A stretch of 64,000 bases of DNA from Thiorhodovibrio frisius (GTDB lineage: Bacteria; Pseudomonadota; Gammaproteobacteria; Chromatiales; Chromatiaceae), in the NCBI RefSeq assembly GCF_033954835.1, contig NZ_CP121471.1:2908501-2972500 (forward strand), written 5' to 3'. Made by a program: the position numbers and the translations under genes. The notes below the pieces were generated by a model. It did not search any database. It was given only the letters and a program-made list of their open reading frames with translations, and was not told where the DNA came from. Below are positions 9,931 to 25,392 of the stretch, piece after piece. The first letter of the stretch is position 1. Each line of letters opens with the position of its first letter.

Positions 9931-10041
9931 ACTGATGAGTCACCTGACGATAAGGCGGCGGGAGATCGGTGGGGGCTTTTTGCATCATTCCTGGTCGGTT
10001 CGAAGTGCCAGCGATAATATTGACCAAGCCACCTGTGTCAC

Positions 10042-11082
10042 ATGAGCGAACCGCAACCAAACTGCCGCGACCCGAGCCATGACGGCAGCTATAAGTTGCT
10101 ATACTCCCATGCGGCCATGGTGCGCGATCTGCTCCGTGGATTCATTCCTGGCGAGTGGCTCGCGCAGTTGGATCTGGGCACCCTGGAGCAGCAAAGCAGC
10201 AGCTATGTCAGCGACGATCTGCGTGATCGGGCCGATGACATCATCTGGCGCGTGCGCTGGGGCCGTGAGTGGCTGTACATCTACGTGCTGCTCGAGTTCC
10301 AGTCGAGCATCGATCACTGGATGGCGGTGCGCATTCCGACCTACATCGGTCTGCTGTATCAGGATCTGATTCGCGCCGAGACGGTCAAGGTCGATGATCA
10401 GCTGCCACCGGTCTTGCCGGTGGTGCTCTACAACGGCGCCTCGCCCTGGAATGCCGAGACCAGCCTCGAGCCGCTGGTTGCGCAAGGGCCGAGGATCTTG
10501 CGGCCCTTTTGCTTGCAATCTGGCTATCTGCTGCTCGATGAGCGGCGAATTGCCGAGAAGGGCAATCTACCGACGCGCAATCTTTGCACCGCGCTGTTTC
10601 AACTCGAGGCCAGCCGGGGTGTCAAACAAGCGCTGGCGATTTTACAACCGCTAATCGCTTGGCTGAGCGCGCCCGAACATGTCAGCCTGCGCCGTGCCTT
10701 TGCCCAGTGGTTTGCGCGGGTGTTTTTGCCCCGGCGCCTGCCCGGAGCCCAGTTTCCATCCTTCAACGATCTTGCGGAGGTTTACACCATGATTGCAGAC
10801 AATGTTGATTCCTGGGCGGATCAGTGGGAACAGCAGGGGATCGAGAAGGGGATCGAGAAGGGGATCGAGAAGGGGATCGAGAAGGGCATCCCCACAGGGA
10901 CGCGTCGCGTGCTCGTTCGCCAAATCCACCGCCGCTTCGGTGAAGGAGCCGCCGAACAGAGCAAGCCGCTCTTGGAGCAAATCGCCGAAGCACAGCGACT
11001 CGAGGATCTCGCCGAGGAACTCCTGCTCTGCACCGACGCTGAAGCCTGGCTGGTCGCCTTGCACACCGCCGCCGAGCAATGA
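10042..11082 (+). CDS. Rpn-family nuclease / putative transposase (Transposase_31 type)
   Basis: A 346-residue intact protein of the Transposase_31/RpnA-like type. The N-terminus has DPSHDGSYKLLYSHAAMVRD, typical of the family, then Asp66 (RADDIIWRV) and Glu85-x-Gln87 (YVLLEFQSS), which fit the PD-(D/E)XK core. The middle VLPVVLYNGASPW is also family-typical. A hinge of four GIEK repeats (12-bp units, 10837-10884) joins a short C-terminal module (RRVLVRQIHRRFGEGAAEQS and following). An internal GGAGG-ATG (10776-10791) precedes the hinge. RpnA proteins cleave DNA and stimulate RecA-independent recombination (family knowledge). The gene sits between remnants of relatives, and pieces of it occur in the chimera at 7147. 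Confidence 0.82.
   Translation: MSEPQPNCRDPSHDGSYKLLYSHAAMVRDLLRGFIPGEWLAQLDLGTLEQQSSSYVSDDLRDRADDIIWRVRWGREWLYIYVLLEFQSSIDHWMAVRIPTYIGLLYQDLIRAETVKVDDQLPPVLPVVLYNGASPWNAETSLEPLVAQGPRILRPFCLQSGYLLLDERRIAEKGNLPTRNLCTALFQLEASRGVKQALAILQPLIAWLSAPEHVSLRRAFAQWFARVFLPRRLPGAQFPSFNDLAEVYTMIADNVDSWADQWEQQGIEKGIEKGIEKGIEKGIPTGTRRVLVRQIHRRFGEGAAEQSKPLLEQIAEAQRLEDLAEELLLCTDAEAWLVALHTAAEQ
10776..11082 (+). promoter_or_regulatory. Internal Shine-Dalgarno and ATG: predicted intragenic RpnS-like product
   Basis: GGAGG at 10776-10780 and an in-frame ATG at 10789 (eight-base spacer) would start a 97-residue C-terminal product beginning MIADNVDSWADQWEQQ. It contains the GIEK hinge and the terminal module. Confidence 0.5.
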
Positions 11083-11087
11083 GACGC

Positions 11088-11275
11088 GAATTCCGGGGAC
11101 ATATACGTAATTCCCAACACTGATCCCTCCTGAGCGCTGGCCCCGCCAACCAGCCCTGAGGTTCGCGCCTCGGGGGGGGGCAGCCAACCAGGTCGCGCCA
11201 TTGCATCCCCAAGCCCTGGCAGATCGACTAAACTCCTGCCATGCATCGCGACCAACGCATCCCCTGGCACAAACT
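11088..11275 (+). repeat. Dispersed repeat, copy 2 (leader of the 11241 gene, 9-G tract)
   Basis: Nearly identical to 6784-6975. The run of G at 11172-11180 is 9 long here and 12 long in copy 1. The tract lies 60 bases upstream of the 11241 start codon, where length changes could alter promoter or leader function. Confidence 0.8.
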
Positions 11276-12161
11276 TTTAGGACAAGCCCTGGCGGACGCC
11301 CTGAGCGGGTTACCCTACCAGGTCAGCACCGAGGAAGAACTCGCGCTGCGCAGTCAGCGCCTGGATGTGCTCATCATTGAGCAGGGGCAATCCGCGCAGG
11401 CAACCAGCAGACCTGCTGAAGACTGCCCGGATGGACTGGAAGACCTGACCAAGCACAACCTGCTGAGCTTCAAAGCCGCCGACGAGCCCTTCAGCGCCTG
11501 GTCTGCCGAAGAATTGCTCAGTCATTCGGTTACCTACCGCAAAGTCGCCTCCCTGCGCGCCCTACGCGAGCGTCAGTCAGACCCTGACCAACCGCTCGAA
11601 GAGCCCAAGGAGCACTACCGGCTGTTACCGGCCAAAGACTTCCGCTGCTACGCCATTGCCACGCGCTTTCCGCGCCAATTGGTCAAACAACTGCGACCGG
11701 GCAGTTGTCAAAAAACCGAGAAAGCGGGAATCTATCGCTTGCGCTTTGGCACCCGCGACATGCGCCTGGTCGTCATCAACCAGCTCGAGCCCCACCCGCG
11801 CAATGCGCCCTGGGGCCTGTTCGCCACCGATGAAGCCCACTGGCGCGCGGCCTATGCCAGCTATCGCTCGCATAGCGACATCGGCATTCACCTGCACAAT
11901 CTCATTGGTTATTTTCGCCTGGGAGAAGGACACATGGCCTACACGCAAGACGACATGCACCGCGATGCCCGCGAATGGCTCAAGAGCGCGCTGAGCGAGC
12001 TTGACCCTGAAGAAGTCCTGCAATGTTACGCCCCCGAGGATCGGCTTAAGGGGCTTGATGCGGAGGAGGTGCTCAATCGCTACGATCCGGAGGATCGGCT
12101 CAAGGGACTTGATTCCGCCACCATCGAAGCCTGGTTGGCCAAGCAGCGCCGAGATCACTAA
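11241..12161 (+). CDS. Nuclease-like protein of the Rpn island (unrecognised family)
   Basis: A 306-residue intact frame starting MHRDQRIPWHKLLGQALADA. The N-terminal region has the beginnings of a nuclease-like core (RSQRLDVLIIEQGQ, then GLEDLTKHNLLSFKA) that resembles the D...(E)xK layout of Rpn-type proteins but without a canonical Glu-x-Lys. I do not recognise a named family. The C-terminus has two 18-residue repeats (12003-12056 and 12057-12110) sharing PEDRLKGLD. An internal ATG at 11934 follows GGGAG with an eight-base spacer, again just before the repeats. The 3' end abuts a 5'-truncated copy of another gene, so the extreme C-terminus could have been altered by recombination. Confidence 0.6.
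   Translation: MHRDQRIPWHKLLGQALADALSGLPYQVSTEEELALRSQRLDVLIIEQGQSAQATSRPAEDCPDGLEDLTKHNLLSFKAADEPFSAWSAEELLSHSVTYRKVASLRALRERQSDPDQPLEEPKEHYRLLPAKDFRCYAIATRFPRQLVKQLRPGSCQKTEKAGIYRLRFGTRDMRLVVINQLEPHPRNAPWGLFATDEAHWRAAYASYRSHSDIGIHLHNLIGYFRLGEGHMAYTQDDMHRDAREWLKSALSELDPEEVLQCYAPEDRLKGLDAEEVLNRYDPEDRLKGLDSATIEAWLAKQRRDH
11921..12161 (+). promoter_or_regulatory. Internal Shine-Dalgarno and ATG in the 11241 gene
   Basis: GGGAGAAGGA at 11921-11930 followed by an in-frame ATG at 11934 would yield a 75-residue C-terminal product (MAYTQDDMHRDAREWLK and following) containing the repeat units. This is a fourth instance of the same layout in the island. Confidence 0.4.
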
Positions 12162-12171
12162 GCGAATCTAC

Positions 12172-12579
12172 ATGCACTATGCGCCCGAGGAGAAGGTCGA
12201 GGTCTACGCCCAAGCGGCGCGCGGCCTGCGCACGCTGGAACCCGACCGCGAACGTCAGATCAAATATCTGGACTTTGTCGACATCTATGCCAACCTTGAC
12301 GAGAATGAACGCCAGCGCTACCAGCAAGACTATGCCGAGGAGATCAAGACCATGAGCGCGTTTGCCGATCGGTTTATTGAGCAGGGCATGCAGCAGGGCA
12401 TGCAGCAGGGCATGCAGCAGGGCGAAGCCACGATCTTGATGATGCAGCTGGAAGAAAAATTCGGCTCGGAATCCATCGCCGCCCACCGTGAGCGCATCGA
12501 GACCGCCGAACCTGAAAAACTGTTGCAGTGGTCGAGGCGGATCCTCACCGCCGAGACGCCCGAGACCATTTTCCACTGA
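12172..12579 (+). pseudogene. 5'-truncated MSHDQNF-type nuclease gene that keeps the complete C-terminal module
   Basis: From ATG 12172 (MHYAPEEKVEVYAQAARGLR) to the stop this matches the 3' half of the 8850 gene. The nuclease core is missing. The hinge has three GMQQ units (12385-12420). The internal start (GAGGAG 12337-12342, ATG 12352) is unchanged and would give a 75-residue product like copy A. It could therefore still make the C-terminal protein alone. Confidence 0.75.
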
Positions 12580-12727
12580 CGTTCTGACCTGCCGTCATCA
12601 CTCACACCATAATCAAAGGGGCCGGGCACGAATTCATTTCTCAAGTCAACTTTAAATCAAAGCGCAGCTAACTGATTTGCTGACGCGGGAATTGGAATTC
12701 TGGCAGTAAAAACGATAAACTCAATTG
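12580..12727 (+). other. Short spacer with a degenerate repeat
   Basis: The first 30 bases repeat the 3' flank of the MSHDQNF-type genes (GTTCTGACCTGCCGTCATCA). A degraded GGGCACGAATTCATTT element follows. The rest up to the PIN gene shows nothing recognisable. Confidence 0.5.
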
Positions 12728-13210
12728 ATGAAGCGGAAAATATACATTGAAACCTCCGTCATCAGCTATCTGACTGCACGCCCTAGCAAAACCATTATTG
12801 GCGCAGCTCATCAGCAAATCACTCTGGCCTGGTGGGATTTGCGTTCCGACTATGACCTGGTTATTTCTCAGCTCGTCTGGCAAGAGTGCGCAGCTGGTGA
12901 TCCGATAGCTGCACAACGGCGGCTTGCCACCCTTGAGGGGATGTCCGTTCTCGCGGTAACGCAAGAGATGATCCACTTGGCAGAATCGCTTATTGAACAA
13001 GGTATTATTCCTGCCAAAGCCATTGAGGACGCGCTTCATATTACTGTTTCAACTCTGCATCGCGTTGATTTTCTTTTGACTTGGAATTGCCGTCATATTG
13101 CCAATCCAGTCATTCAGGAAAAGATTGCAGAATATTTTGAGCAACTCGGATTGTTTCTCCCGATTATTTGTACCCCGGAAGAACTTCTTGGAGAAAATAT
13201 TGATGACTGA
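12728..13210 (+). CDS. VapC-like PIN-domain toxin
   Basis: A 160-residue PIN-domain protein: YIETSVISYL at the N-terminus, a central acidic position, EDALHITVS and WNCRHIAN near residues 105-125 are the conserved stations of one VapC subfamily in which the first Asp is Glu. PIN toxins are Mg2+-dependent RNases kept in check by a partner antitoxin. The ATG at 12728 is preceded by an alternative in-frame TTG. Base composition is visibly lower in GC than the neighbours, which fits recent acquisition. The stop overlaps the start of the next small gene, as usual for toxin-antitoxin pairs. Confidence 0.8.
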   Translation: MKRKIYIETSVISYLTARPSKTIIGAAHQQITLAWWDLRSDYDLVISQLVWQECAAGDPIAAQRRLATLEGMSVLAVTQEMIHLAESLIEQGIIPAKAIEDALHITVSTLHRVDFLLTWNCRHIANPVIQEKIAEYFEQLGLFLPIICTPEELLGENIDD

Positions 13211-13412
13211 CGAAATTATGATGGAAGTCCATGCTATCAAAGACGCAATTGGCATTAAGTATGGCAACGATCTTAACGGTCTATTTAAAGATATACAACA
13301 TGGGGAGGCTAGGCTAAAAGCTGCGGGCTTCGAAGTTTTAGCTCCTCCTGTCAAGTGTAGACATTTGCCTGACTCAGCATTGCAGCGGACCCGGTTTTTT
13401 AATCAAAGGTAA
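13203..13412 (+). CDS. Probable antitoxin partner of the PIN protein
   Basis: A 69-residue frame beginning MTDEIMMEVHAIKDAIGIKY, whose ATG overlaps the PIN gene by eight bases. The N-terminal 45 residues (charged helix, LFKDIQHGEARLKAAGFEV) look like the small proteins encoded next to this PIN subfamily. After about residue 52 the sequence has no such look and AT-rich spacer-like DNA follows, so the natural C-terminus may have been lost at a junction. The order toxin-then-antitoxin is less common but known for this group. Confidence 0.6.
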   Translation: MTDEIMMEVHAIKDAIGIKYGNDLNGLFKDIQHGEARLKAAGFEVLAPPVKCRHLPDSALQRTRFFNQR

Positions 13413-13414
13413 GT

Positions 13415-13510
13415 AAGAACAAATGGAAAAAAGAAGCGCTGGAGCGGTTGTTTTCCGAGTTCCTCGCGCTGCTGTTCCCGGCCATTCACGCCCAGATCGA
13501 CTGGCGCGTT
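13415..13510 (+). pseudogene. Short N-terminal remnant of an Rpn-type gene
   Basis: In frame, 13415-13510 reads KNKWKKEALERLFSEFLALL and FPAIHAQIDW, which looks like the first strand-helix segment of Rpn/DUF4351 'transposases'. It has no start codon with a ribosome site, and it ends in unrelated sequence. Confidence 0.45.
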
Positions 13511-13607
13511 CTGCCTGGGGACTTGGCGCCCCGTGTTGAAAATACCAGATGACGAAGTGCTAGATAGCGATTTTCCTAGTTGTCCAGTCCCGTGTAATTC
13601 CGGTCAA

Positions 13608-13807
13608 GGAAATTTGGTGCCAGGCTCAAGGAAATTTGGTGCCAGGCTCGAATATATTTCGCGCGTCAACCCCCTCAAGCTGCGGTGCGCGCCGATGCCG
13701 GCCAAACCCTATCGGGAGCCTGCCGCTGTCGAAGTGAATCGGTTAGACTCGCTTGATGAGCGCCAAGCCCCGGATGGCTAATAGCGGCACGCGGATATGG
13801 GACCCCG
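13608..13807 (+). repeat. Leader module of the MSHDQNF-type nuclease genes, copy 3, with doubled first element
   Basis: The element AAATTTGGTGCCAGGCTC occurs twice in tandem here (about 13609 and 13632). The second copy continues into the same leader as at 6974 and 8678 and ends at the start codon of the nuclease gene at 13808. Confidence 0.75.
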
Positions 13808-14677
13808 ATGAGCCACGACCAGAACTTCAAGAACCTCATCCTCGACTACCCACGCCAGGCGATTGAGTTTGCCGCCGCGAGCGAAGCGGCGCGGCTGGGC
13901 GATGACGTGCGCATCCTGCCGCTGCGCGAGGAACAGCTGAAGGAACGTCTTGGCGAACGCTTTCGCGAACTCGACGTGCCGCTGCTGCTGGAATGGCCCG
14001 ACGGGCACCGCCAGGCACTGCTGTTTGTGTTCGAGGAAGAAACCGAGCCCGGGCGCTTCTCCATCCACCGCCTGATCCACTATTGCGTGGACATCGCCGA
14101 ACTCTACCAGACAGAGCGGGTAGTGCCGGTGGTGATCTTCCTGCACCCCGGACACTTCCGCGAGAGCCTCAGCCTGGGCAGTGACACGCGGGTGTATCTG
14201 CACTTCAGCTATCTGGCCTGGCCGCTCTTTGGGCTCAAGGCGCGCGATTATTTCGACAGCCCCAATCTGGTGGCGCGGTTGAATCTGCCCAACATGCACT
14301 ATGCGCCCGAGGAGAAGGTCGAGGTCTACGCCCAAGCGGTGCGCGGCCTGCGCACGCTGGAACCCGACCGCGAGCGCCAGATCAAATATCTCGACTTTGT
14401 CGACATCTATGCCAACCTTGACGAGAATGAACGCCAGCACTACCAACAAGACTATGCCGAGGAGATCGAGACCATGAGCGCGTTTGCCGATCGGTTTATT
14501 GAGCAGGGCATGCAGCAGGGCGAAGCCACGATTTTGATGATGCAGCTGGAAGAAAAATTCGGCTCGGAATCCATCGCCGCCCACCGTGAGCGCATCGAGA
14601 CCGCCGAACCTGAAAAACTGTTGCAGTGGTCGAGGCGGATCCTCACCGCCGAGACGCCCGAGACCATTTTCCACTGA
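13808..14677 (+). CDS. Rpn-family PD-(D/E)XK nuclease / putative transposase with DUF4351-like tail, copy B
   Basis: A 289-residue near-duplicate of the 8850 gene: same N-terminus, same predicted core (Asp56, Glu76-78) and same C-terminal module. The main difference is the hinge: only one GMQQ unit (14507-14518) instead of three, so the protein is eight residues shorter. The internal ribosome site GAGGAG (14459-14464) and ATG (14474) are retained. The high identity between copies points to recent duplication or gene conversion. Confidence 0.8.
   Translation: MSHDQNFKNLILDYPRQAIEFAAASEAARLGDDVRILPLREEQLKERLGERFRELDVPLLLEWPDGHRQALLFVFEEETEPGRFSIHRLIHYCVDIAELYQTERVVPVVIFLHPGHFRESLSLGSDTRVYLHFSYLAWPLFGLKARDYFDSPNLVARLNLPNMHYAPEEKVEVYAQAVRGLRTLEPDRERQIKYLDFVDIYANLDENERQHYQQDYAEEIETMSAFADRFIEQGMQQGEATILMMQLEEKFGSESIAAHRERIETAEPEKLLQWSRRILTAETPETIFH
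14459..14677 (+). promoter_or_regulatory. Internal Shine-Dalgarno and ATG: predicted intragenic RpnS-like product, copy B
   Basis: GAGGAG at 14459-14464, nine-base spacer, ATG at 14474. The product would be 67 residues, differing from copy A mainly by two fewer GMQQ units. Confidence 0.5.
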
Positions 14678-14817
14678 CGTTCTGACCTGCCGTCATCACT
14701 CACACCATCGCCGCTTTGCGGTGCTATGAGCTGAAGCTGCGGGTGCTAAAAAACTCATGGTTCGCCGGCAGGCAGGTACCCGGCGAAACTCCCATGGCCA
14801 CAACCAATCCCGCGCCC

Positions 14818-15708
14818 ATGAAGACCGATCACCCGATTTATCTCTTCCTGCGCAGCGGCCCTGAAGCCTTCCGGGTGCTCACCGGCGGCCTGGTGCTGAA
14901 CGGCCCCTACACAGCCTGCTCGCTGACCATCAAAGGCATCGAGCGCCGGCTCGATGGGCTGGTCGAACCTGACGGGCATGCCGGCCCCACCTATGTGGTG
15001 GAATTCCAAGCTCAGCCCTCAGCCAAGGCGCTGTACAATCTCAATACCAAGATCGGACTCTACGGCGAAGAACACCCCGAACGGGAAGTGCTGGGCATTG
15101 CGGTGTTTCTGCGCGCGGCCGATATTCCCGACCAGCCAAGCTGGGTGCATAAACAAGGCTCGCCGATTCGCTGTGTCGCACTCGACAGCTTTCTGCGCGA
15201 CCTGCTTGTGCGCGAACCGGACAACCCATTCGTGGCGGTGTTCGCGCCGCTAATCATCGACAGCGATGCCGAGCTGACCGAGCGTGCCTCGGTTCTGTGG
15301 CAAACCATCCAGCAAGCACCAGTTGACGAAGACACGCGCGAGACGCTGTCGAACGTACTGGAGTTCTGGTTTTTTGAACGTTTTCGTGGCAAGACCGCGA
15401 AGGAGATCTGGACAATGTTAAATCTGGTCACTCCGATTCAGGAGACGAAGGCGTATCAGTCCATCTTTGCTGAGGGTGAGGAGAAGGGCAAAACTGACGG
15501 CAAGGCAGAGGGCAAGGCGGAGGGCAAGGCGGAGGGCAAGGCCATCACCCTGCACCGCCAGCTAACCCGCCGCTTCGGTTCGCTGCCACCTTGGGCCGCG
15601 CAGCACATCGCCGCAGCACCCGAGGCGCAGCTCGATCGCTGGCTTGATGGCATTTTTGATGCAACCAGCGTTGAGGATTTGCTCGGTGGCGAGGGCGAGC
15701 CTCATTGA
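14818..15708 (+). CDS. DUF2887-type Rpn-family nuclease
   Basis: A 296-residue protein starting MKTDHPIYLFLRSGPEAFRV, typical of DUF2887 Rpn-like proteins. The predicted PD-(D/E)XK residues are Asp46 (RRLDGLVEP) and Glu62-x-Gln64 (VVEFQAQ). The frame is open upstream to 14716, with another ATG at 14794. I prefer 14818 because the remnant at 6568 starts at the same Met, but 14794 remains possible. A GKAE repeat hinge (12-bp units, 15487-15546) leads to a DUF4351-like tail (HRQLTRRFGSLPPWAAQHIA and following). An internal AAGGAG-ATG precedes the hinge. Two fragments of the same family lie at 6572 and 9762, so this locus has been repeatedly recombined. Confidence 0.8.
   Translation: MKTDHPIYLFLRSGPEAFRVLTGGLVLNGPYTACSLTIKGIERRLDGLVEPDGHAGPTYVVEFQAQPSAKALYNLNTKIGLYGEEHPEREVLGIAVFLRAADIPDQPSWVHKQGSPIRCVALDSFLRDLLVREPDNPFVAVFAPLIIDSDAELTERASVLWQTIQQAPVDEDTRETLSNVLEFWFFERFRGKTAKEIWTMLNLVTPIQETKAYQSIFAEGEEKGKTDGKAEGKAEGKAEGKAITLHRQLTRRFGSLPPWAAQHIAAAPEAQLDRWLDGIFDATSVEDLLGGEGEPH
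15400..15708 (+). promoter_or_regulatory. Internal Shine-Dalgarno and ATG in the DUF2887 gene
   Basis: AAGGAG at 15400-15405 and an in-frame ATG at 15415 (nine-base spacer) would start a 97-residue product beginning MLNLVTPIQETKAYQSIF. It contains the GKAE hinge and the DUF4351-like tail. Confidence 0.5.
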
Positions 15709-15916
15709 TTCGGATCGGATTATTTTCAAGCCAGGCTAGCAAATTCCGCCGGATCACAAATTTTCGGAGTTTAACAAGGTGGGGCCGCTTGAGACGCTTG
15801 CTCAGAGACCTAGCTCACTATGTGAGCCAAGCCGGATCAGTTGCAACACCCTAGACCGAAAACACCCTCGTCCAGCGAAACACTTCCTTTTAAGATCGAT
15901 CCGTTGCGGTGATACG

Positions 15917-16732
15917 ATGTTTACCCCGGATTTCACAAAACCGGAACGCGATCTCGCTGGTCGCCGCACTTTCACTCTGACCCCGAGCGCCCTGTTGTTC
16001 AAGACTTTTGTGTTTGCAATTCTTCGCCCGCTTGGCAACAGCCTGCGCGATCTCGCACCCATTGTGCTGCTGATCGCGGTCTTTCAATTGCTTGTGCTGC
16101 GCCAGCCACTGCCGGATCTGCCTGCGCTACTGCTGGGAATGCTGTTCGTCGTGCTGGGGCTGACGTTGTTCATTGAGGGGCTGAAGCTGGGGCTCTTTCC
16201 GCTCGGGGAGATGATGGCCTGGGGCTTCGCGCGCAAAGGCAGTGTGTTCTGGCTGTTGTGTTTTTCCTTTGCGCTCGGCTTTGGCACCACGGTCGCCGAG
16301 CCGGCGCTGATCGCGGTGGCCGACGAGGCCGCGACCATCGTCGCCGAGGGTGGCATGATCGCCGATGAGCCTGCCGCGCTCGCCCGTTATGCCGATGGCC
16401 TGCGCTACAGCGTTGCGGTTGCCGTCGGCCTGGCCATTGTCATTGGCGTGCTGCGCATTCTGCGTGGCTGGCCCATTCAATGGCTGATCATTGGCGGCTA
16501 TCTTGGAGTGGTACTGATGACCCTGGTCGCACCGAGCGAAATTATCGGCATCGCCTATGATTCCGGTGGCGTGACCACCTCAACCATCACTGTGCCCTTG
16601 GTCGCGGCCTTGGGCGTGGGTTTGGCCTCCAGCATCGAGGGCCGCAATCCGCTGACTGACGGCTTCGGGCTGATCGCCTTTGCCTCGCTGACGCCTATGA
16701 TCTTTGTGATGGGCTATGGATTGCTGATATGA
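15917..16732 (+). CDS. umpA: DUF1538 membrane protein, subunit A (UmpA-like cation/H+ antiporter)
   Basis: A 271-residue polytopic protein; the start is the ATG at 15917, since the upstream frame lacks coding character. It has about seven hydrophobic helices and the conserved stretches [17 protein letters not shown] and [18 protein letters not shown], both repeated in the next gene. DUF1538 pairs named UmpAB have been reported to act as a two-component Na+(Li+,K+)/H+ antiporter (family knowledge), so a role in ion homeostasis is likely. Its stop overlaps the start of the second subunit by four bases. An unusual, frequently paired PII-like and CBS protein follow in the same unit. Confidence 0.78.
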
Positions 16733-17514
16733 CCGCCAGCCTGTGCCCTTTTGAAGACATCATTCCGCTCTGCGGCACCCTGGTTGATGTGCTGCCGATT
16801 CTGGCGGTGCTCATTGGCTTTCAGGTGCTGGTGCTGCGCCGGCCCATTGCCCATCCTGGCCGCGTCGCACTGGGGTTTTTAATGGTGCTGCTGGGGCTGG
16901 CGCTCTTTATCGCTGGACTGGAAAGCGCTCTCTTCCCGCTCGGCCGGTTGATGGCCGAGCAACTGACTGCGCCCGCCTTTCTCGGCTTCGATAGCCTGGC
17001 GGCTCAGGGCGGCCCGCACTGGAAGGCCTATCTGTGGGTGTATTTGTTTGCCTTCGCGCTCGGCTTTGCTACCACCATTGCCGAGCCGTCGCTGATCGCG
17101 GTGGCGCTCAAGGCCGAACAGGTCTCGGCTGGCGCCATTCGCCCGCTCGGGCTGCGCCTGGCTGTGGCCTTGGGGGTCGCCTTTGGTATCGCCCTGGGTG
17201 CCCATCGCATCGTCGCCGGCACCCCACTGCATTATTACATCATCACCGGCTATGTCATTGTATTGATCCAGACCGGATTCGCGCCCAAGATGATCATCGC
17301 CCTCGCCTACGACTCGGGCGGCGTCACGACTTCCACGGTCACCGTGCCTCTGGTCACGGCGCTTGGCCTAGGGCTGTCGTCTAACATTCCCGGGCGCAAT
17401 CCGCTACTCGATGGCTTTGGTCTCATTGCCTTCGCCAGCCTCTTCCCGATCATGGCCGTGATGGGCTACGCTCAGATGGGCCAATGGCTCGCACACCGCA
17501 GCAGCCACCGCTAA
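16729..17514 (+). CDS. umpB: DUF1538 membrane protein, subunit B (UmpB-like cation/H+ antiporter)
   Basis: A 261-residue paralogue of the preceding protein, with the same signatures: [19 protein letters not shown] and [18 protein letters not shown], and the shared [17 protein letters not shown] near the C-terminus. The ATGA overlap with umpA suggests coupled translation and a heteromeric complex. The matched Glu-Pro and Asp-Ser-Gly-Gly motifs in both subunits may form a pseudo-symmetric ion path (inference). Confidence 0.78.
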
Positions 17515-17566
17515 GTTTTCCTGCAACAAAAACTCAGAGCCAGAACCACTCAGGATTGCCACTGCC

Positions 17567-17917
17567 ATGCATTTCAAACTCATAGTTGCCCTGGTGCAGG
17601 GCTCAGAGACGGAGAAGGTGCTCAAGGCCGCGCGCGGGGCTGGGGCCACCGGCTCCACCGTGATCAGCCAGGCACGCGGCGAGGGCCTCGAGCAGCAGAA
17701 GACATTCTTCGGGCTTACACTCGATGCTCCGCGCGACCTGCTGTTATTGCTGGTGGAAGAACATCTGAGCCGCAAGATTTTGGAGACCATCGCCGAGGTC
17801 GCCGGCTTTGAGGACAAGCCCGGCTGCGGCATTGCCTTTCAGATCGATGTCGAGGATGCCGTCGGCATTCGCCATCAGGTCGAACGCCTGTCAGAAACCG
17901 TCGAGAAAGAGATTTAA
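17567..17917 (+). CDS. PII-like signalling protein
   Basis: A 116-residue protein with the ferredoxin-like PII fold: MHFKLIVALVQGSETEKVLKAA at the start and CGIAFQIDVEDAVGI near the end, matching the last strand of PII. It lacks the uridylylated Tyr of the canonical GlnB T-loop, and its B-loop (EDKPGCG) differs from GlnB/GlnK. Stand-alone PII-like proteins beside transporters typically bind nucleotides or other small ligands and gate their neighbour. Regulation of the UmpAB pair is the natural inference. The ATG lies 52 bases after umpB. Confidence 0.8.
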   Translation: MHFKLIVALVQGSETEKVLKAARGAGATGSTVISQARGEGLEQQKTFFGLTLDAPRDLLLLLVEEHLSRKILETIAEVAGFEDKPGCGIAFQIDVEDAVGIRHQVERLSETVEKEI

Positions 17918-17918
17918 C

Positions 17919-18380
17919 GTGACTGAAGAAGCCATTTCCGATTCCCTTTCGCCCGAATCCCAGGCGCCTGAGGCGCCCATCGTTCGGGTGCGCCATGTGA
18001 TGAAACGCGACTTCGATATCGTCGATGGCATGGACACCGTCGCTGAGGCACTGGCGCGCATGGTGCACGTCGAGACCAAGTGTCTGATCGTTAAAAAGCG
18101 CCATGCCGATGATGAATTCGGCATGGTGCTGATGTCAGACATCGCTCGCAAGGTGCTGGCGCGCGATCGCCCCGCCGAGCGAGTGAATATCTACGAAATT
18201 ATGTCCAAACCCCTGCTGAGCGTGCCACCGGAGATGGACATCCGCTACTGCGCGCGGCTGTTTGCCCGCTTCAAACTCTCGCGCGCGCCCGTGGTGGACC
18301 AACGCGAGGTGGTGGGTATTGTGAGCCTGACCGATCTGGTGGTGAAGGGAATGCTGGAGCGCACGACGCCGACGCCCTGA
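17919..18380 (+). CDS. CBS-domain protein
   Basis: A 153-residue protein with two CBS motifs: VRHVMKRDFDIVDGMDTVAE through GMVLMSDIARKVL, and YEIMSKPLLSVPPEMDIRYC through VGIVSLTDLVVKGML. CBS pairs bind adenine nucleotides and report energy state. I start it at the GTG at 17919, one base after the PII-like stop. The reading frame is open upstream, but that part overlaps the PII-like gene. It is the last gene of the DUF1538 unit, and the tight spacing suggests the two soluble proteins work with the transporter. Confidence 0.82.
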   Translation: MTEEAISDSLSPESQAPEAPIVRVRHVMKRDFDIVDGMDTVAEALARMVHVETKCLIVKKRHADDEFGMVLMSDIARKVLARDRPAERVNIYEIMSKPLLSVPPEMDIRYCARLFARFKLSRAPVVDQREVVGIVSLTDLVVKGMLERTTPTP

Positions 18381-18423
18381 TAGCGGGACCAGGCATCCAG
18401 AGTCCCTGCGCTTGTTGCCAGCC

Positions 18424-19005
18424 ATGACCGACGAGACCATGAACAAGCCAATGCCGGATCATCCCCTGTCGCGCGGCTGGCTGACGGCTGCCCGCCCCTG
18501 CCCTTCGCCCAATCATAATGAGCGCCCGCCGGGCATGCCTGTCGATCTGCTGGTAATTCACAATATCAGCCTGCCGCCGGGTGATTTTGGCGGACCTGGG
18601 ATCGCGCAGTTATTTCTCAATCAGCTCGATCCTGCGCAACATCCATTTTTTGCGACCATCGCCGACCTGCGGGTATCGGCTCATCTGCTGATCCGCCGCG
18701 ATGGGGAGCTGATCCAATTTGTCGATCTGCGCGCGCGCGCCTGGCATGCGGGGGCCTCGGCGTTTGGCGGGCGCGCGGACTGTAATGATTTTTCGATTGG
18801 GATTGAGCTTGAAGGGACGGATGAGACGCCCTTTACCGATGCGCAGTATGCGCGGCTGATTGGCGTCACCGAGGTGATTTTGCGCGGCTTTCCGGGTATC
18901 GGGCCGGGACGTGTTGTCGGGCATGAGCATATCGCGCCTGGGCGCAAGACGGACCCTGGCCCTTGCTTTGATTGGGCTCGGTATTTGGATAGTGTTTTTG
19001 GGTGA
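18424..19005 (+). CDS. ampD: 1,6-anhydro-N-acetylmuramyl-L-alanine amidase AmpD
   Basis: A 193-residue amidase_2-family zinc enzyme. It cleaves the peptide from anhydro-muropeptides in the cytoplasm during peptidoglycan recycling. The Zn ligands His46 (VIHNIS), His167 and Asp177, and Lys175, in GHEHIAPGRKTDPGP, match the AmpD pattern, with the same spacing of ten between His and Asp. FSIGIELEG is also family-typical. The ATG at 18424 is preferred over an upstream TTG at 18412. In related bacteria AmpD activity keeps AmpC-type beta-lactamase induction low. No ampE follows. Confidence 0.93.
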   Translation: MTDETMNKPMPDHPLSRGWLTAARPCPSPNHNERPPGMPVDLLVIHNISLPPGDFGGPGIAQLFLNQLDPAQHPFFATIADLRVSAHLLIRRDGELIQFVDLRARAWHAGASAFGGRADCNDFSIGIELEGTDETPFTDAQYARLIGVTEVILRGFPGIGPGRVVGHEHIAPGRKTDPGPCFDWARYLDSVFG

Positions 19006-19054
19006 TTGGCTTTGGGCAAATGAAGTTGAGTCTGCGGATTTGGGATCAGCCGCC

Positions 19055-19870
19055 TCAGGCTGCTTCGGCCAGGGGTTGAGGGGCAATGTTGTCATTGCGG
19101 CCGAGCACTTCGCGAATCTCCGTCCAGCGCAGTAGCTCCATGCGACCGTTATGGTGCTCGACCAGTGCGGTGCAGCTTTCGACCCAGTCGCCGCAATTGC
19201 AGTAGTTGACACCTTCAATTTCGCGCATTTCGGCATGATGGATGTGGCCGCAAACCATGCCGTCAACCTGATGCCGCTGTGCCTCGGCGGCCACCGCCTG
19301 CTCGAAGTTGCCGATGTAATTGACGGCGTTCTTGACCTTGTGCTTGAGAAAGGCCGCCAGCGACCAGTAGCGCAGCCCCAAGCGGCGGCGGATGCGATGC
19401 ACCGGCTGGCTAATCGCCAGCACGGTGTCGTACAGGGTCGCGCCCAGCATGGCCAGCCAGCGGCCGTTTTGCACCACCTGATCGAACTTGTCGCCATGCA
19501 GCACCAGCAGGCGACGCCCATCGACTGTGGTATGCACCAGTTCATCGCAGATGGCGACACCGGCGAATTCCGCGCCGAGATGGCCGCGCAGTAATTCGTC
19601 GTGATTGCCTGGTACATAGGTGACCTGCGTGCCGTTGCGGGCCTTTTCCAGCACCGCCTGCACCACCTGATTGTGGGCATCCGGCCAGTAAAGCCCTTTG
19701 CGCAGTGCCCACATGTCGATGATGTCACCAACCAGATACAGCTGCCGACAGGCGGTCGCACGCAGAAAGTCGAGCAGAAACTCCGCCTGACAGCCTCGAA
19801 ACCCCAGATGCACATCCGAAATCCAGATGGTGCGATATCTTAGCGGCCGCAAGGCCTCAACCTGACTCAT
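19055..19870 (-). CDS. LpxH-like UDP-2,3-diacylglucosamine diphosphatase / metallophosphoesterase
   Basis: A 271-residue calcineurin-type phosphoesterase with the metal-binding motifs DVHLG, GDIIDMW, GNHDE, LHGDKFD and GHIHHAEM in order. The length and the extra C-terminal part fit the LpxH/LpxH2-like group that hydrolyses UDP-2,3-diacylglucosamine in lipid A synthesis. A second LpxH-type enzyme elsewhere cannot be excluded, and so I leave the symbol open. It is convergent with ampD, with 49 bases between. Confidence 0.8.
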   Translation of the reverse strand: MSQVEALRPLRYRTIWISDVHLGFRGCQAEFLLDFLRATACRQLYLVGDIIDMWALRKGLYWPDAHNQVVQAVLEKARNGTQVTYVPGNHDELLRGHLGAEFAGVAICDELVHTTVDGRRLLVLHGDKFDQVVQNGRWLAMLGATLYDTVLAISQPVHRIRRRLGLRYWSLAAFLKHKVKNAVNYIGNFEQAVAAEAQRHQVDGMVCGHIHHAEMREIEGVNYCNCGDWVESCTALVEHHNGRMELLRWTEIREVLGRNDNIAPQPLAEAA

Positions 19871-20067
19871 TCTTAACCCCCTCGTGACTGAAAGCGCGCC
19901 GGCATCCGCATCGCAGTGAAAAACTGCGGGCTATGGTCACCGAGCTTTGTTGCAAAGCCGTTGAGGTGTTGTGAAGGTCTGGTTAAGACGCGCGAGCCCG
20001 GCTCAAGAAAGCGCGGTCATGCAATAATGGCGGTTATTCGGTCAATCACTTTTCACGGAGCCTTTGC

Positions 20068-21291
20068 ATGCCCGCAACACAGATTAACAAGGTCGTGCTC
20101 GCCTACTCCGGCGGCCTCGACACCTCCGTCATCCTGAAATGGCTACAGCAAGAATATGACTGCGAGGTGGTAACTTTCACCGCCGACATCGGCCAAGGGG
20201 AAGAGTTAGAGCCCGCGCGCACCAAGGCGCAGGCGGCAGGGGTGAAGGAGATCTACATCGACGACCTGCGCGAAGAATTTGTGCGCGATTTCGTCTACCC
20301 CATGTTCCGCGCCAATGCGCTTTATGAGGGCGAATACCTGCTCGGCACCTCCATTGCCCGCCCGCTGATCGCCAAGCGCTTAGTGGAGATTGCGCGCGAG
20401 ACCGGCGCCGATGCCATCTCCCACGGCGCCACCGGCAAAGGCAACGACCAAGTGCGCTTTGAACTCGGCGCCTATGGGCTAAATCCGGAGATTCAGATCA
20501 TCGCGCCCTGGCGGGAATGGGATCTGCTCTCGCGCGAGAAGCTGCTGGCCTACGCCGAGCAGCATGGCATTCCGGTGGAGATGAAGCGCGAGGGTAACAA
20601 GTCGCCGTACTCCATGGACGCCAACCTGCTGCACATTTCCTACGAGGGCTATGATCTGGAAGACCCCTGGGTCGAGCCTGGTGCCGACATGTGGCGCTGG
20701 ACGCGCGACCCGCAAGAGGCCCCGAATACTCCGCAGGAGATCGAACTGCGCTTTGAGCGCGGCGACATCATCGCCATCGACGGCAACCCCATGAGCCCGG
20801 CGCAGGTGCTGGCGGAGCTCAACCGCATTGGCGGCGAGCATGGTATCGGCCGCGCCGACATTGTCGAGAATCGCTATGTCGGCATGAAATCGCGCGGCTG
20901 TTACGAGACCCCCGGCGGCACCATCATGCTGAAGGCGCATCGGGCGATGGAATCGCTCACGCTCGACCGCGAGGCGGCGCACCTGAAAGACGAGCTGATG
21001 CCTCGCTATGCCAGCCTGATCTACAACGGCTATTGGTTCAGCCCGGAGCGGAACATGCTCCAGGCCGCGATTGACCAGACCCAGTCGGTGGTCAATGGCG
21101 AGGTGCGCCTAAAGCTCTACAAGGGCAATGTGATGGTCACCGGCCGGCGCTCAGCAAGTGACAGTCTGTTCGATACCAGCATCGCCACCTTCGAAGAAGA
21201 CGCCGGCGCTTATGATCAGGGCGATGCAACCGGTTTTATTCGGCTCAATGCGCTTCGCCTGCGCGTGGCTGGGCGCAAGGGGCGGCTTTAA
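20068..21291 (+). CDS. argG: Argininosuccinate synthase
   Basis: A full-length 407-residue Arg[12 protein letters not shown] is the ATP-PP motif, then [10 protein letters not shown] and [15 protein letters not shown] (ATP and citrulline/aspartate binding), and [13 protein letters not shown]. It condenses citrulline and aspartate with ATP to argininosuccinate, the penultimate step of arginine synthesis. The gene stands alone with about 200 bases upstream. The ATG at 20068 is preceded by a GGAG at a normal distance. Confidence 0.97.
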
Positions 21292-21358
21292 GCTCAAAAG
21301 CTCAAGCGGGGCCTCTTCATGGGCGCGGTCGGGACTGACGCTGACCGCGCCAGCGCGG

Positions 21359-21814
21359 CTAATGCCTCTGCGGCAGTTCAGAGGGCGCCTCGGCGCGCGC
21401 CTGCAATTGATCAAAAGGATCTTCACCCGCGCGCGTGCGTCCAGCATCGCGCAGTCGCTGCAAATAATCCTGCCACAGCGGCTGCCAGCCACGCCCGAGC
21501 TTGTAGAGATAAGCCCAGTCAAACAGCCCGGACTTATGCCCGTCGTCAAAGAAAATCTTCACCGCATAGTTGCCGATAGGCTCCAGATTGGTGATATTCA
21601 CAGTCTCTTTGCCTATCTGCAGCTTGGCCTGATCCGGCGTGTGCCCTCGCACTTCGGCCGAGGGAGAGTAGACCCGCAGATATTCGCACGGCAGGCGAAA
21701 ATGGGCGCCATCATCATAAATGAGTTCTAGCACGCGGGATTGGCTGTGCAACTGGATGTCGGTTGGGCGGGGGTTCGTCTCCATCACATTGGGCTCAAGT
21801 GATCTAACATTCAT
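21359..21814 (-). CDS. DUF971 domain protein (gamma-butyrobetaine hydroxylase-like N-terminal domain)
   Basis: A 151-residue protein with the DUF971/GBBH-like_N signature: LELIYDDGAHFRLPCEYLRV, ITNLEPIGNYAVKIFFDDGH and SGLFDWAYLYKLG. Short bacterial members consist of this zinc-ribbon-derived domain alone and are suspected to act in Fe-S or complex assembly; no reaction is known to me. An alternative start METNPRP lies ten codons later. It is convergent with argG (67 bases). Confidence 0.85.
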   Translation of the reverse strand: MNVRSLEPNVMETNPRPTDIQLHSQSRVLELIYDDGAHFRLPCEYLRVYSPSAEVRGHTPDQAKLQIGKETVNITNLEPIGNYAVKIFFDDGHKSGLFDWAYLYKLGRGWQPLWQDYLQRLRDAGRTRAGEDPFDQLQARAEAPSELPQRH

Positions 21815-21927
21815 TGTGCGAAACCATCCCGGAAGATGGAGTTGCGATTAAGGGAATCGCGCGGCAGCGCCTGAATTTGCCCCGAGAAGTTGACTGCCGG
21901 GGTGCGGTTTCACAGAAATACACTTCG

Positions 21928-23007
21928 CTAGCCGACTGCGGCCATTTTGACTAAATGCGGACAGGCCGCGCCGCTGGCCTGCATCTCTGGCCAGCCGCAG
22001 GTGTGGCGGGCAACCAAAGCCGCCAGCATGTCGAGATGCTCGGGTGCATCGTTGAGGCAGGGAATGTAGTAGTAGCTCTCCCCGCCGGCTTCAATGAAAT
22101 AGCGGCGATTTTCGACGGCGATTTCTTCCAGGGTTTCCAGGCAGTCAGCAGAGAAACCGGGGGCAATAACATGCACGCTCTTAATTCCGTCGCTGCCCCA
22201 GAGTTTGAGCGTTTCATCGGTATAGGGTTGCAGCCATTCGTCGCGCCCGACGCGGGACTGGAAGGAGACCAGCCAGCGATCTTCGTCCAGCTCAAGCTGG
22301 TCGGCAACCATGCGCGCGGTTTTGTGGCAATGGCAGTGGTAGGGGTCGCCGGCGGTAAAGTAGCGCTTCGGGATACCGTGAAAGGAGAACAGCAGACGCT
22401 CGGGCTCGCCTTTCTCGGCCCAGGCGCGGCGGACACTGCTCGCAAGGGCGTCAATGTAGGCCAGCTCGTCGTGATAGTGATTGACGAAGCGTATTTCCGG
22501 TAGCCAGCGCCAGGTGCTGAGCTCCTCGGTGACGGCGTCGAAACTGGATGCCGTGGTGGTGCCAGAGTACTGGGGGTAAAGCGGCAGGACCAGCAGGCGG
22601 CGCACCGCGTCGGCCTTGAGCAGCTCGAGTGCCTGTTTGACTGACGGATTGCCATAGCGCATGCCAAGTTCGACACGCACCTTTGAGCCGATGCGCTGGC
22701 TGAGGCGTTCCTGCAGACCGGTGGCCTGGCGCTGGGCAATGTCGAGTAGCGGCGAGCCGCGATCAGTCCACACGGCCTGGTAAGCGCGCGCGGAACGCGC
22801 CGGGCGCACCCGCAGGATGACACCGTGCAAAATGAACCACCACAGCGGGCGTGGGACTTCGACCACCCGCGGGTCGTTGAGGAACTCGGCTAAGTAGCGG
22901 CGCACAGCGTTGGGTGTGGGTGCATCCGGGGTGCCGAGATTGAGCATCAGCACGCCCAGCTTTTCTGGCATATCATGCTGAAAATCTACGATATTTTTGT
23001 ATTTCAT
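21928..23007 (-). CDS. hemH: Ferrochelatase
   Basis: A 359-residue ferrochelatase. It inserts Fe2+ into protoporphyrin IX, the last step of protoheme synthesis. Family landmarks in order: KLGVLMLNLGTPDAP, LPLYPQYSGTTTASSFD, LFSFHGIPKRY (active-site His), SFQSRVGRDEWLQPYTDE and APGFSADCLETLEEI. Its start overlaps the stop of the upstream hemerythrin-like gene by four bases, suggesting coupled expression. Confidence 0.96.
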   Translation of the reverse strand: MKYKNIVDFQHDMPEKLGVLMLNLGTPDAPTPNAVRRYLAEFLNDPRVVEVPRPLWWFILHGVILRVRPARSARAYQAVWTDRGSPLLDIAQRQATGLQERLSQRIGSKVRVELGMRYGNPSVKQALELLKADAVRRLLVLPLYPQYSGTTTASSFDAVTEELSTWRWLPEIRFVNHYHDELAYIDALASSVRRAWAEKGEPERLLFSFHGIPKRYFTAGDPYHCHCHKTARMVADQLELDEDRWLVSFQSRVGRDEWLQPYTDETLKLWGSDGIKSVHVIAPGFSADCLETLEEIAVENRRYFIEAGGESYYYIPCLNDAPEHLDMLAALVARHTCGWPEMQASGAACPHLVKMAAVG

Positions 23008-23600
23008 GCGGCATCCTCGGGGTCAATTTCATCCTTGAGATAATCATACAGAGTGCGAAAGCGCAGCGGATCGAGCTGCCCGAAAACCGGATCGGCCGCA
23101 CTCGGTGCCTGCTGCTCGAGCCGCGACCAGTCGTCCGCGCTTAGCATGGTGCGTGCAACGGGAAACACCCGAGCTTCTTCATCGGCGATGTGAGAGCGCA
23201 TTAGTGCAATCAACGCTTGCCCCTGCCCAGCCACCGCATCACGTGACAGCACTTCCCCGTGGACAATGCCCTCGAGTGCGTCACGAAAAGCTCGGCTCGT
23301 GTCCTCGAGCTGCCGATGCTGGTCGCTCAACTCGGTGATGGCCAGAGCCAGCGCCGATGGATCCATCTCAGGTCCCGATGCTGTCGCGCCCAGCCCCTGT
23401 CGCAGGGCAGTGAAGATCAGCTCCTCGCTCGGATGGTGAACCTGGTCCGCATAGTCCACGACATATTCCAACATCTCGCACATCAACTCATAGTCCGGCT
23501 CATCGCCGCCTTGAAAACGCGCAACCAGCGCGTCAAGCAGCGCCATGATGCGCGCGAAGCGGCGATGATCCCGCGTTAACCGATTCATCAGGGCACTCAT
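23004..23600 (-). CDS. Hemerythrin-like domain protein
   Basis: A 198-residue HHE-type helical protein: RLTRDHRRFARIMALLD, VVDYADQVHHPSEE, LSDQHRQLEDT and MRSHIADEEARVFP supply the His/Glu ligands expected for a di-iron centre. Such proteins bind O2 or NO or sense iron and redox state. It overlaps hemH by ATGA, which points to iron/heme economy rather than general stress, though that is inference. Confidence 0.85.
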   Translation of the reverse strand: MSALMNRLTRDHRRFARIMALLDALVARFQGGDEPDYELMCEMLEYVVDYADQVHHPSEELIFTALRQGLGATASGPEMDPSALALAITELSDQHRQLEDTSRAFRDALEGIVHGEVLSRDAVAGQGQALIALMRSHIADEEARVFPVARTMLSADDWSRLEQQAPSAADPVFGQLDPLRFRTLYDYLKDEIDPEDAA

Positions 23601-23676
23601 CGGGTTCTCCCGTCGCTTGCAACTAGGTTGTCACCAGTTGGCCGATCCGCCACAACCTGGCGATTCATCGACCGCA

Positions 23677-25392
23677 TCAGGTCTGCCAGCGCGCGGGCAG
23701 ATGCGGGCGCAGCTGGCGCCATAACCAGCCGACTTGCGGCGGACGCCCCAGGGTCGTGCTCAGAACGTCAATATCGACCTGATTCCACCGCATGCGCGTG
23801 CGTGCCGAGGCACTGCCGCAAAATAGCAGTCGGTCGCCGGGCTGGATAAGGGTACCATGAGGGTCGGGCAACAAGTCGAGCCGAGTGCCACGCTGATGCA
23901 GCAGCGCAATGGCGGACAAACTGGCATCAACCGCGCGCGGGTCTTTCAGCAGATCGACCAGATGCGGCTTGAGCCCGAGATCGGCCGCATCCATCAAGGC
24001 CGGCGAATCATCGCCGTCAATGCCAAATTCCCAAACCTCGGGCGCCTGTTCCTGAATCATCGCGGCCACCCGGCTGACCAGGGCGCAGGCCCATTCCTCG
24101 TTCTGGTCTCGTGCGAGGTCAAAAAACCTGGCGAGCAGCGGTGATCTGAGCAGGGTGCGAATGCGATTGGCGACAATCAGGCTGGGGTGCATGCGGATGT
24201 CCGCGTCCACGGCGGCAAAGAGGTCCTCGTTGACCATGTGATTTTCGCGCACCACCACGAACAGCTCCGGATTCAGCACCCGCGCGGTCATGATAATGGA
24301 CAAATTGTTGGCATCGTTATCGGTGCCGGCAATCAAGCCAACCGCCTCGCGGATACCGGCCTGCTCCAGGGTTTCAGCCTCGGTGCCACGGCCGTGAATC
24401 CAGGCGGTCGACGGCGTGCCGGTGTGCTCGGGGCTCTGTTCGATGACCATGAGTTCGGTGCCGCCCGGGCTCAACTCACGATAGACCGCCTTGCCGAAGC
24501 GACCAAAACCGCACAGAATCCAGCGTCCTTCGCTCGGTGGCTTGCGCGGCTCGCCGAGCTGCGCTCCGCGCAGGGCACCGAGCCAGTCATTAAGCACCGT
24601 GTGACAATGCGCGGTCAGGGCGACGCGCAGATAGAGCGCGAAGATCTCAAAGGGATTGAGTACATAGTCGGTGTCAAACGACAGCATGTTCGCCGAGATG
24701 TCGTGCGAATCCGAACGACCGATAATGGTCACCTCCGGATGCAGCAACTTCGCTGCCAGCGCCACCTTAAGGTTGACCTCGTTAGAGGAGGTCAGAGCGA
24801 GCACCGCCTGGCACATTGGGTGGCGCAGACCACCACTCAGCAGCACATCCGGGCATTGCGCATCGGCCTGCAGGGAGGGAACGAATTCGCGCAGCTTCTC
24901 GAGTTGCAGACCGTTAAGGCGTTCGCGATCAATGTCAATGACGACGGCACGGCGACGCTCGCTAGTCAGTGCCCGCACCAGGTCGCGACCGGTCTGGCCA
25001 TAGCCAACGATCAGAAAAAAGGGCGTAGTAATGCGCTTAACACTCGCCGCGAAGCGTCTTTCCGCTAGCGCGCGCTGAAGACTCTCGTCTTGCAGCAGCG
25101 CAATCAGCGAGCCGACCGAGTAGATCCACACGGTCACCGTTAAATAGATACAGAACACCGTCCAAAGCCGCTGCGCATCGCTGAACTCGCGCGGCAATTC
25201 GCCAAAGCCAATGGTGGTGGCCATGTAGCTGACAAAATAAAAGGCATGAAAGAAACCCAGATACCAGACAGTACCGTCGGCATCCCGCCCTGGGATCAGG
25301 ACCAGCCCGAACACCGCAACACTGTAGACCGTCACCAAGGCCAGCAGCGGTTTGCGCATGCGCCGCAGAATGAGGAAATAGATGTTATCCAT
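23677..25392 (-). CDS. Potassium channel protein with two TrkA/RCK modules
   Basis: A 571-residue protein. The N-terminus has a two-helix pore module with the selectivity filter TTIGFGEL at residues 59-66. This is followed by an RCK domain with the Rossmann glycines GYGQTGRD (130-137), and a second one with GFGRFGKA. Tandem RCK channels gate K+ flux in response to ligands such as nucleotides or Ca2+. The C-terminal part has a TrkA_C-like segment (LIQPGDRLLFCG). The family as a whole is often annotated as NAD-binding potassium channel. It lies 64 bases after a small membrane protein gene. Confidence 0.87.
   Translation of the reverse strand: MDNIYFLILRRMRKPLLALVTVYSVAVFGLVLIPGRDADGTVWYLGFFHAFYFVSYMATTIGFGELPREFSDAQRLWTVFCIYLTVTVWIYSVGSLIALLQDESLQRALAERRFAASVKRITTPFFLIVGYGQTGRDLVRALTSERRRAVVIDIDRERLNGLQLEKLREFVPSLQADAQCPDVLLSGGLRHPMCQAVLALTSSNEVNLKVALAAKLLHPEVTIIGRSDSHDISANMLSFDTDYVLNPFEIFALYLRVALTAHCHTVLNDWLGALRGAQLGEPRKPPSEGRWILCGFGRFGKAVYRELSPGGTELMVIEQSPEHTGTPSTAWIHGRGTEAETLEQAGIREAVGLIAGTDNDANNLSIIMTARVLNPELFVVVRENHMVNEDLFAAVDADIRMHPSLIVANRIRTLLRSPLLARFFDLARDQNEEWACALVSRVAAMIQEQAPEVWEFGIDGDDSPALMDAADLGLKPHLVDLLKDPRAVDASLSAIALLHQRGTRLDLLPDPHGTLIQPGDRLLFCGSASARTRMRWNQVDIDVLSTTLGRPPQVGWLWRQLRPHLPARWQT

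Follow-up and report, generated by a model that had tools for sequence, protein, structure and literature searches.

In the 64,000-nucleotide stretch of the Thiorhodovibrio frisius genome analysed here (contig NZ_CP121471.1, positions 2,908,501 to 2,972,500 of the forward strand; hereafter the window), two genes encoding DUF1538 membrane proteins are followed by a gene encoding a PII-like protein and a gene encoding a two-CBS protein. The association of DUF1538 with PII and CBS genes is not a product of chance, and the counts of gene architectures show that PII is the near-constant partner and that the third component, either a CBS protein or a second PII, is variable. On balance, the four genes probably encode one unit, a UmpAB cation/proton antiporter gated by the PII-like protein and provided with the CBS protein as a second sensor.

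The first-pass annotation had placed two DUF1538 genes, a PII-like gene and a CBS gene in this region, and all of the reading frames were found at those positions, on the forward strand, with Pfam matches. The spacing it gave was also confirmed: umpA and umpB overlap by 4 bases (ATGA), a gap of 52 bases separates umpB from the PII gene, and a single base lies between the PII and CBS genes. The features of the locus, in window coordinates, are:

15917-16732, + strand: umpA, ATG start, DUF1538 membrane protein of 271 aa, first antiporter subunit (Pfam PF07556, NCBIfam NF041627)
16729-17514, + strand: umpB, ATG start, DUF1538 membrane protein of 261 aa, second antiporter subunit (Pfam PF07556, NCBIfam NF041628, AlphaFold2 model)
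17080-17091, + strand: AEPS motif of UmpB, residues 118-121 (alignment of 58 rows, model)
17311-17334, + strand: DSGGVTTS motif of UmpB, residues 195-202, in the second broken helix (alignment of 58 rows, model)
17567-17917, + strand: PII-like regulator, ATG start, 116 aa, with divergent ligand-site residues (Pfam P-II, model, Foldseek, column counts)
17919-18380, + strand: two-CBS protein, GTG start, 153 aa (Pfam CBS, alignment to CBS-CP12 5nmu)

The start of umpA is uncertain, the protein having about 244 aa in many relatives. The promoter scan shows two promoter-like sites, both on the reverse strand, against 0.9 (sd 0.8) in shuffled sequences, and the terminator scan shows four terminator-like sites against 4.1; neither scan is informative about the operon boundaries. 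When window positions 10001-24000 were compared with 11.4 kb around the operon of a genome of the same genus (G001), DNA similarity was found only from about 16040 to 18356, that is, in the four genes and not in the flanks. The upstream flank contains two ORFs and a DUF2887/DUF4351 gene (12001-12579, 13808-14677 and 14716-15708) with near-identical C-terminal stretches, and this flank has no match in the 11.4 kb around the G001 operon. Genome G001 carries both the split four-gene form and a fused antiporter with two PII genes (L110, L100), and another genome of the genus, G002, shows no DUF1538 match.

Co-occurrence was determined in a class sample of 274 Gammaproteobacteria genomes, in which PII was searched with model A1 at E <= 1e-10. 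DUF1538 is present in 90 genomes, PII in 87 and both in 85 (Fisher test, 6e-62, with the kinship of the genomes ignored), which supports the earlier description of the soluble proteins as dedicated partners. The remaining genomes are five with DUF1538 only and two with PII only. All five of the former show a more divergent PII beside DUF1538 (L056, L236, L237, L245 and L247). In the latter, the PII of L193 lies 121 bases from the contig end, and L194 has 1380 bases upstream without DUF1538.

Gene order was read at 243 DUF1538 loci, the window not counted: 107 belong to the class and family samples, 80 to named GTDB genomes, 40 to the phylum search (36 from other classes and four from the class sample), seven to plasmids (seven of the nine records found), and nine were fetched for their PII. 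In the phylum sample DUF1538 is present in 88 of 397 genomes, part of which was fetched; the named loci, found with the UmpB alignment, are the best 80 of 557 confirmed matches. PII adjoins DUF1538 at 232 of the 243 loci (223 of 234 without the nine PII-fetched loci). Among the 11 loci without an adjacent PII, six have a contig end at most 173 bases downstream and five do not (L077, L102, L172, L231 and L234). A CBS gene is found at 187 of the 243 loci, and an overlap of 4 bases between the PII and CBS genes is seen at 153 of 185 loci. The first-pass annotation had made a conserved order of the four genes one test of the association, and antiporter, PII and CBS follow each other in 79 of the 80 named loci (the best 80 of 557). 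The exception is L172, a Thiomargarita MAG, in which an exonuclease-like frame, named by its sequence, follows instead. Represented in this named set (again the best 80 of 557) are Vibrio, Photobacterium, Colwellia, Sedimenticola and Methylomicrobium, together with one record each of Desulfobulbaceae, Nitrospirae, Polarisedimenticolaceae, Gallionellaceae, Thiobacillus and Aliiroseovarius; except for Aliiroseovarius, these single-record labels could be mis-binned, since they are MAGs. No record named Halomonas is found among the best 80 of the 557 confirmed named loci. In genome G099, UmpA and UmpB are in different contigs (L077 and L078), and PII and CBS are located after UmpB only.

Sixteen loci, picked from unusual cases, were fetched for PII alone. 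DUF1538 adjoins PII in nine of them, and none is found in the stretch read of the other seven (L193, L194, L195, L196, L198, L200 and L203). L194 and L195 show more than 1.3 kb upstream without DUF1538, the DUF1538 of the genomes of L195, L196 and L198 sits on another contig, and L200 and the degraded L203 are extra PII copies. The PII encoded at L200 (5033-5380) belongs to this group (104 bits); neither DUF1538 nor CBS was matched in the 10.5 kb read there, and the genome, G251, also has a normal operon (L040).

The loci were divided into architecture classes by automatic labels. The largest class, with 175 loci, shows split UmpA-UmpB, PII and CBS, and 11 loci show a single fused antiporter with PII and CBS. 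The order PII-CBS-antiporter (G055, L207) is seen at one of the 11 fused loci, L207. A fused antiporter of about 600 aa or more with two PII-like genes, without CBS, is present at 25 loci. At twelve loci, among them Methylocystis and Chelativorans plasmids, PII alone accompanies a split antiporter; two of the twelve are irregular, L056, where a fused antiporter and PII come with an additional subunit at a contig end, and L201, a broken copy. The class with a fused antiporter and one PII-family protein includes seven loci: five clostridial plasmids, L236 and L237. L161 has two PII genes plus CBS, and L230 has a split antiporter with PII, followed by a fused one with two PII genes. The DUF1538-PII association persists whether the antiporter is split or fused, whether CBS is present or absent, where the order is changed, and on alphaproteobacterial and clostridial plasmids, in whose records PII is annotated just as 'P-II family nitrogen regulator'. 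From the four-part set proposed by the first-pass annotation, PII is thus retained as near-constant partner, but CBS is frequently missing or gives way to a second PII.

Both antiporter subunits are members of PF07556: UmpA matches with E 1.7e-67 (227 bits) and UmpB with E 5.8e-66 (222 bits), against a curated cut-off of 22.6. The NCBI UmpA and UmpB models align almost end to end despite scores below the equivalog cut-offs, UmpA reaching 371 bits against 490 for NF041627 and UmpB 336 bits against 500 for NF041628. The name UmpAB-like antiporter is consequently upheld by family but not at the NCBI equivalog level. None of the 274 Gammaproteobacteria genomes reaches the UmpA equivalog cut-off.

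An alignment of a natural fusion (L151) with split subunits, meant for a model of the UmpA-UmpB pair, was discarded because the shared invariant columns revealed UmpB rows placed on the UmpA half; UmpB was therefore modelled alone, with UmpB and UmpA rows. In this AlphaFold2 model (pLDDT 91.3), helices are broken at AEPS (98-117 and 120-132) and at DSGGVTTS (187-199 and 205-219). Secondary transporters often show such breaks at their ion sites. Across 58 aligned UmpB and UmpA rows, A118, E119 and P120 are invariant, as are D195 to V199, T201 and S202, with T200 conserved in at least 90%, and DSGGVTTS is a candidate ion site. A known fold was looked for in the PDB with Foldseek and VIA, and no clear match was obtained. 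Foldseek gave nothing at E <= 0.001, the best being a ZIP transporter at 0.52. The best VIA rows are 4u9l (Z 5.6) and 4u9n (Z 5.5), titled 'a membrane protein', with values in a range common for helical proteins; they share the residue numbering of MgtE 2zy9, itself a weak structural match (Z 4.9), and we take them to be the MgtE membrane domain. The lack of a fold match proves neither a new fold nor a different one.

The one published system of DUF1538 antiport found is UmpAB of Halomonas zhaodongensis, for which the available text describes Na+(Li+,K+)/H+ antiport and reports a hetero-dimer (PMC5484666). The 4.2-kb Halomonas clone pUC-ZD-6, whose last listed ORF is umpB, allowed growth of E. 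coli KNabc at 0.2 M NaCl, and co-expression of umpAB alone conferred salt tolerance (PMC5484666). This system has paired DUF1538 subunits like those of the window but is described without PII or CBS, neither term occurring in the main text of PMC5484666. As the clone is described without a PII or CBS gene, these partners are probably not needed for transport, and since the characterised umpAB is active without them, they are probably regulators. In the accessible part of the cable-bacteria literature, UmpAB is cited as a salt adaptation.

The PII-like protein matches Pfam P-II (PF00543) with E 2.2e-13 and 50.9 bits, against a cut-off of 25, and its monomer model (pLDDT 84.8) shows the classical, ferredoxin-like PII fold. 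The best Foldseek match is GlnK1 2j9d (9.5e-7), and VIA gives Z values up to 12.6 with classical PIIs and 11.1 with SbtB; by sequence, PDB entries are related to it only weakly (best E 0.0027). The host genome also encodes two ordinary PIIs, which score 118 and 114 bits against 50 for this protein. Mean column identity is 78% in 25 rows and 72% in 67 rows. According to the available text of PMC8395244, the ATP contacts of canonical PII include Thr29, Gln39, Gly87, Lys90, Arg101 and Arg103, and those of 2-oxoglutarate include Arg9 and Lys58. An alignment with one canonical PII of the host genome served to map these positions, and columns were counted in 187 PII sequences, the window included, taken from the two kinds of antiporter-PII-CBS arrangement only. 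The Lys90 position is Ile in 165 of the 187 sequences and the Arg101 position is Gly in all 186 that have a residue there. Thr29 is kept as Thr31 (1.0 after rounding, in the 187 sequences), Gly87 is mostly kept as Gly86 (172 of 187), the Gln39 position varies, and the Arg103 equivalent, Arg102 in the window protein, is variable among relatives. Arg56 is found near the Lys58 position in 167 of 187 sequences, so this contact may persist. The T-loop is shorter and lacks Tyr51, and Arg37, Thr46, Phe47, Glu64, His66, Arg69 and Asp97 are strongly conserved in the group. The window protein therefore lacks the marks of the classical nitrogen PIIs GlnB and GlnK (Tyr51 in the T-loop; Gln39, Lys90 and Arg101), and the reading of this protein as a non-canonical PII holds. 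It also lacks the R-loop of SbtB (C105GPEGC110): its single cysteine, C87, means that it cannot form the Cys105-Cys110 disulfide described in the available SbtB text. As judged from these residues, the cleft would be kept but would read a different, less phosphate-rich ligand.

The CBS protein matches Pfam CBS with E 3.6e-17, only the second motif being reported at the Pfam threshold. The first motif is supported by CBS-CP12 5nmu, whose two-CBS part aligns with residues 21-144 (E 1.5e-22), and with both motifs present the protein is a CBS (Bateman) pair, as the first pass had it. D74, in the first CBS, is invariant in 27 rows and presumably supplies the acidic position of the (S/T)xxD motif common in CBS domains, adenine nucleotide binding being putative here. 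The 5nmu protein, which we take to be cyanobacterial, is the closest solved sequence, but the window protein lacks the CP12 part; CBS-CP12 has a role in the Calvin cycle. In MgtE, the CBS part belongs to the transporter protein. The same arrangement in CNNM/CorB and MgtE differs from the separate CBS gene of the window, but in both of these systems a CBS pair controls an ion transporter, as in the proposal made here (PMC10710835, available text).

In the proposed mechanism, UmpA and UmpB would form a heteromeric Na+(Li+,K+)/H+ antiporter, an activity taken from the one published homologous UmpAB. A trimer of the PII-like protein would dock from the cytoplasm and hold the transporter in one state, or release it from that state; which of the two it does would be set by a small ligand occupying the intersubunit cleft of PII. 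This ligand may be an adenine nucleotide, and the loss of the Lys90 and Arg101 equivalents would make AMP or ADP likelier than ATP. The CBS protein would be a second sensor, probably of AMP or ATP, tuning the contact between PII and transporter, and the presumed purpose would be to limit ion and proton exchange when the energy charge falls. Gating by nucleotide or energy signals, as suggested in the first-pass annotation, is plausible by analogy and from the folds. The five DUF1538 loci that have no adjacent PII although no contig end is near, and the seven PII loci without DUF1538, speak against the mechanism. The most likely form of control, by analogy, would be that of GlnK on AmtB and of SbtB on SbtA. 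The portions available of PMC10710835 describe PII control of AmtB, inhibition of SbtA by AMP-bound SbtB, and several transporters that are controlled by CBS. In GlnK-AmtB a PII-family gene is linked to a membrane partner, GlnK being a PII trimer with a T-loop in the text available, as the PII gene is linked to DUF1538 here; in the window, however, DUF1538 replaces Amt, the Tyr51 T-loop and the counterparts of Lys90 and Arg101 are missing from the PII, and a CBS protein is added. The cyanobacterial SbtB-SbtA likewise pairs a PII-like protein, a fold neighbour of the window PII, with a secondary transporter, but the transporter family differs.

An unlikely but serious alternative is that the true cargo is a different solute, such as bicarbonate, ammonium or a small acid, that PII regulates its transport as in carbon or nitrogen uptake, and that the antiport seen in E. 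coli is incidental. In its favour, ammonium, nitrate/nitrite, urea and bicarbonate are the substrates of the PII-controlled transporters named in the available part of PMC10710835, both window subunits score under the equivalog cut-offs, and no clear solved fold hints at the substrate. Against it, the homologous Halomonas pair showed antiport (PMC5484666, available text), PII and CBS genes lie downstream at locus L080 of G091, which in the class sample is the top match to the NCBI UmpA model (408 bits), and DUF1538 is tabulated among the genes tied to growth pH by a machine-learning model in the available text of PMC13255231.

It is less probable still that PII and CBS are a signalling pair of their own with another target, sharing the operon with UmpAB through a common stress response. 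Pairwise-distance correlations over 165 loci, raw values with the kinship of the species left in, are 0.67 for UmpA-UmpB and 0.61 for PII-CBS, against 0.31 for PII-UmpA and 0.42 for PII-UmpB, the range of values across the two pairs being 0.31-0.42. These higher values within the pairs mean that the sensors could act elsewhere, and they are consistent either with that or with two sub-units of one system; the usual 4-base overlap of the PII and CBS genes also favours a separate pair. However, PII is still found with DUF1538 at loci that have no CBS, among them the seven plasmid loci (of nine records), and this counts against a separate pair: with CBS as its main partner, the opposite pattern would be expected. 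Binding of c-di-AMP by the PII, coupling the antiporter to that messenger as proposed from PstA and SbtB, PII-like binders of it, and from its binding to ion transporters elsewhere (in the sources as available), is very improbable and is set aside for Gammaproteobacteria, although not for Clostridia, because the diadenylate cyclase family PF02457 is present in none of the 274 Gammaproteobacteria genomes, against 11 of 14 control genomes.

The preferred reading of a PII-gated UmpAB antiporter joins component families that are known; what may be new is the stable DUF1538-PII pairing with CBS or a second PII, and its kind, PII-controlled transport, is known. No description of DUF1538 paired with a dedicated PII, with or without CBS or a second PII, was found in the literature searched, a scope outside which subscription papers and preprints fall, and in it 'PII' stands alongside 'DUF1538' only as letters of a sequence motif. 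The transporters under PII control named in the review carry nitrogen or carbon sources (PMC10710835, available text), and a dedicated PII for a Na+/K+/H+ antiporter would tie ion and pH balance to a metabolic signal. A function would be assigned to this PII group, and the DUF1538 family would gain a control system. A wider proposal, which we hold only tentatively, is that of a widespread class of PII-gated cation/proton antiporters in which the PII trimer reads a metabolite other than ATP and 2-oxoglutarate, and the CBS pair and the second PII are interchangeable co-sensors. PII control appears restricted to transporters able to act as trimers, as stated in the available text of PMC10710835; a hetero-dimeric UmpAB does not agree with this restriction unless it is a trimer of heterodimers, and the stoichiometry of UmpAB would show directly whether a trimeric transporter is required for PII control.

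Some PII-family proteins beside fused DUF1538 genes are longer. In the clostridial plasmids L211 (4467-5135), L212 (4485-5153), L213 (5266-5940) and L214 (5326-5979), the fused gene is followed, without CBS, by a gene for a PII-family protein mostly of 217-224 aa; of these four proteins tested, Pfam finds two P-II stretches in L211 and L212 and one in the other two, and the protein probably consists of two PII domains. Under the wider proposal above, chains with two or three PII-like domains would represent naturally asymmetric PII assemblies made of one chain and fitted to the UmpA/UmpB pair, and would go against the statement that only transporters able to act as trimers come under PII control. 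L236 (6759-7913) and L237 (6787-7965) each show a single protein after the fused DUF1538 gene, of 384 and 392 aa, with one Pfam P-II match each, that of L236 below the cut-off; from their sequences, these proteins may comprise three tandem PII-like domains, possibly a one-chain pseudo-trimer.
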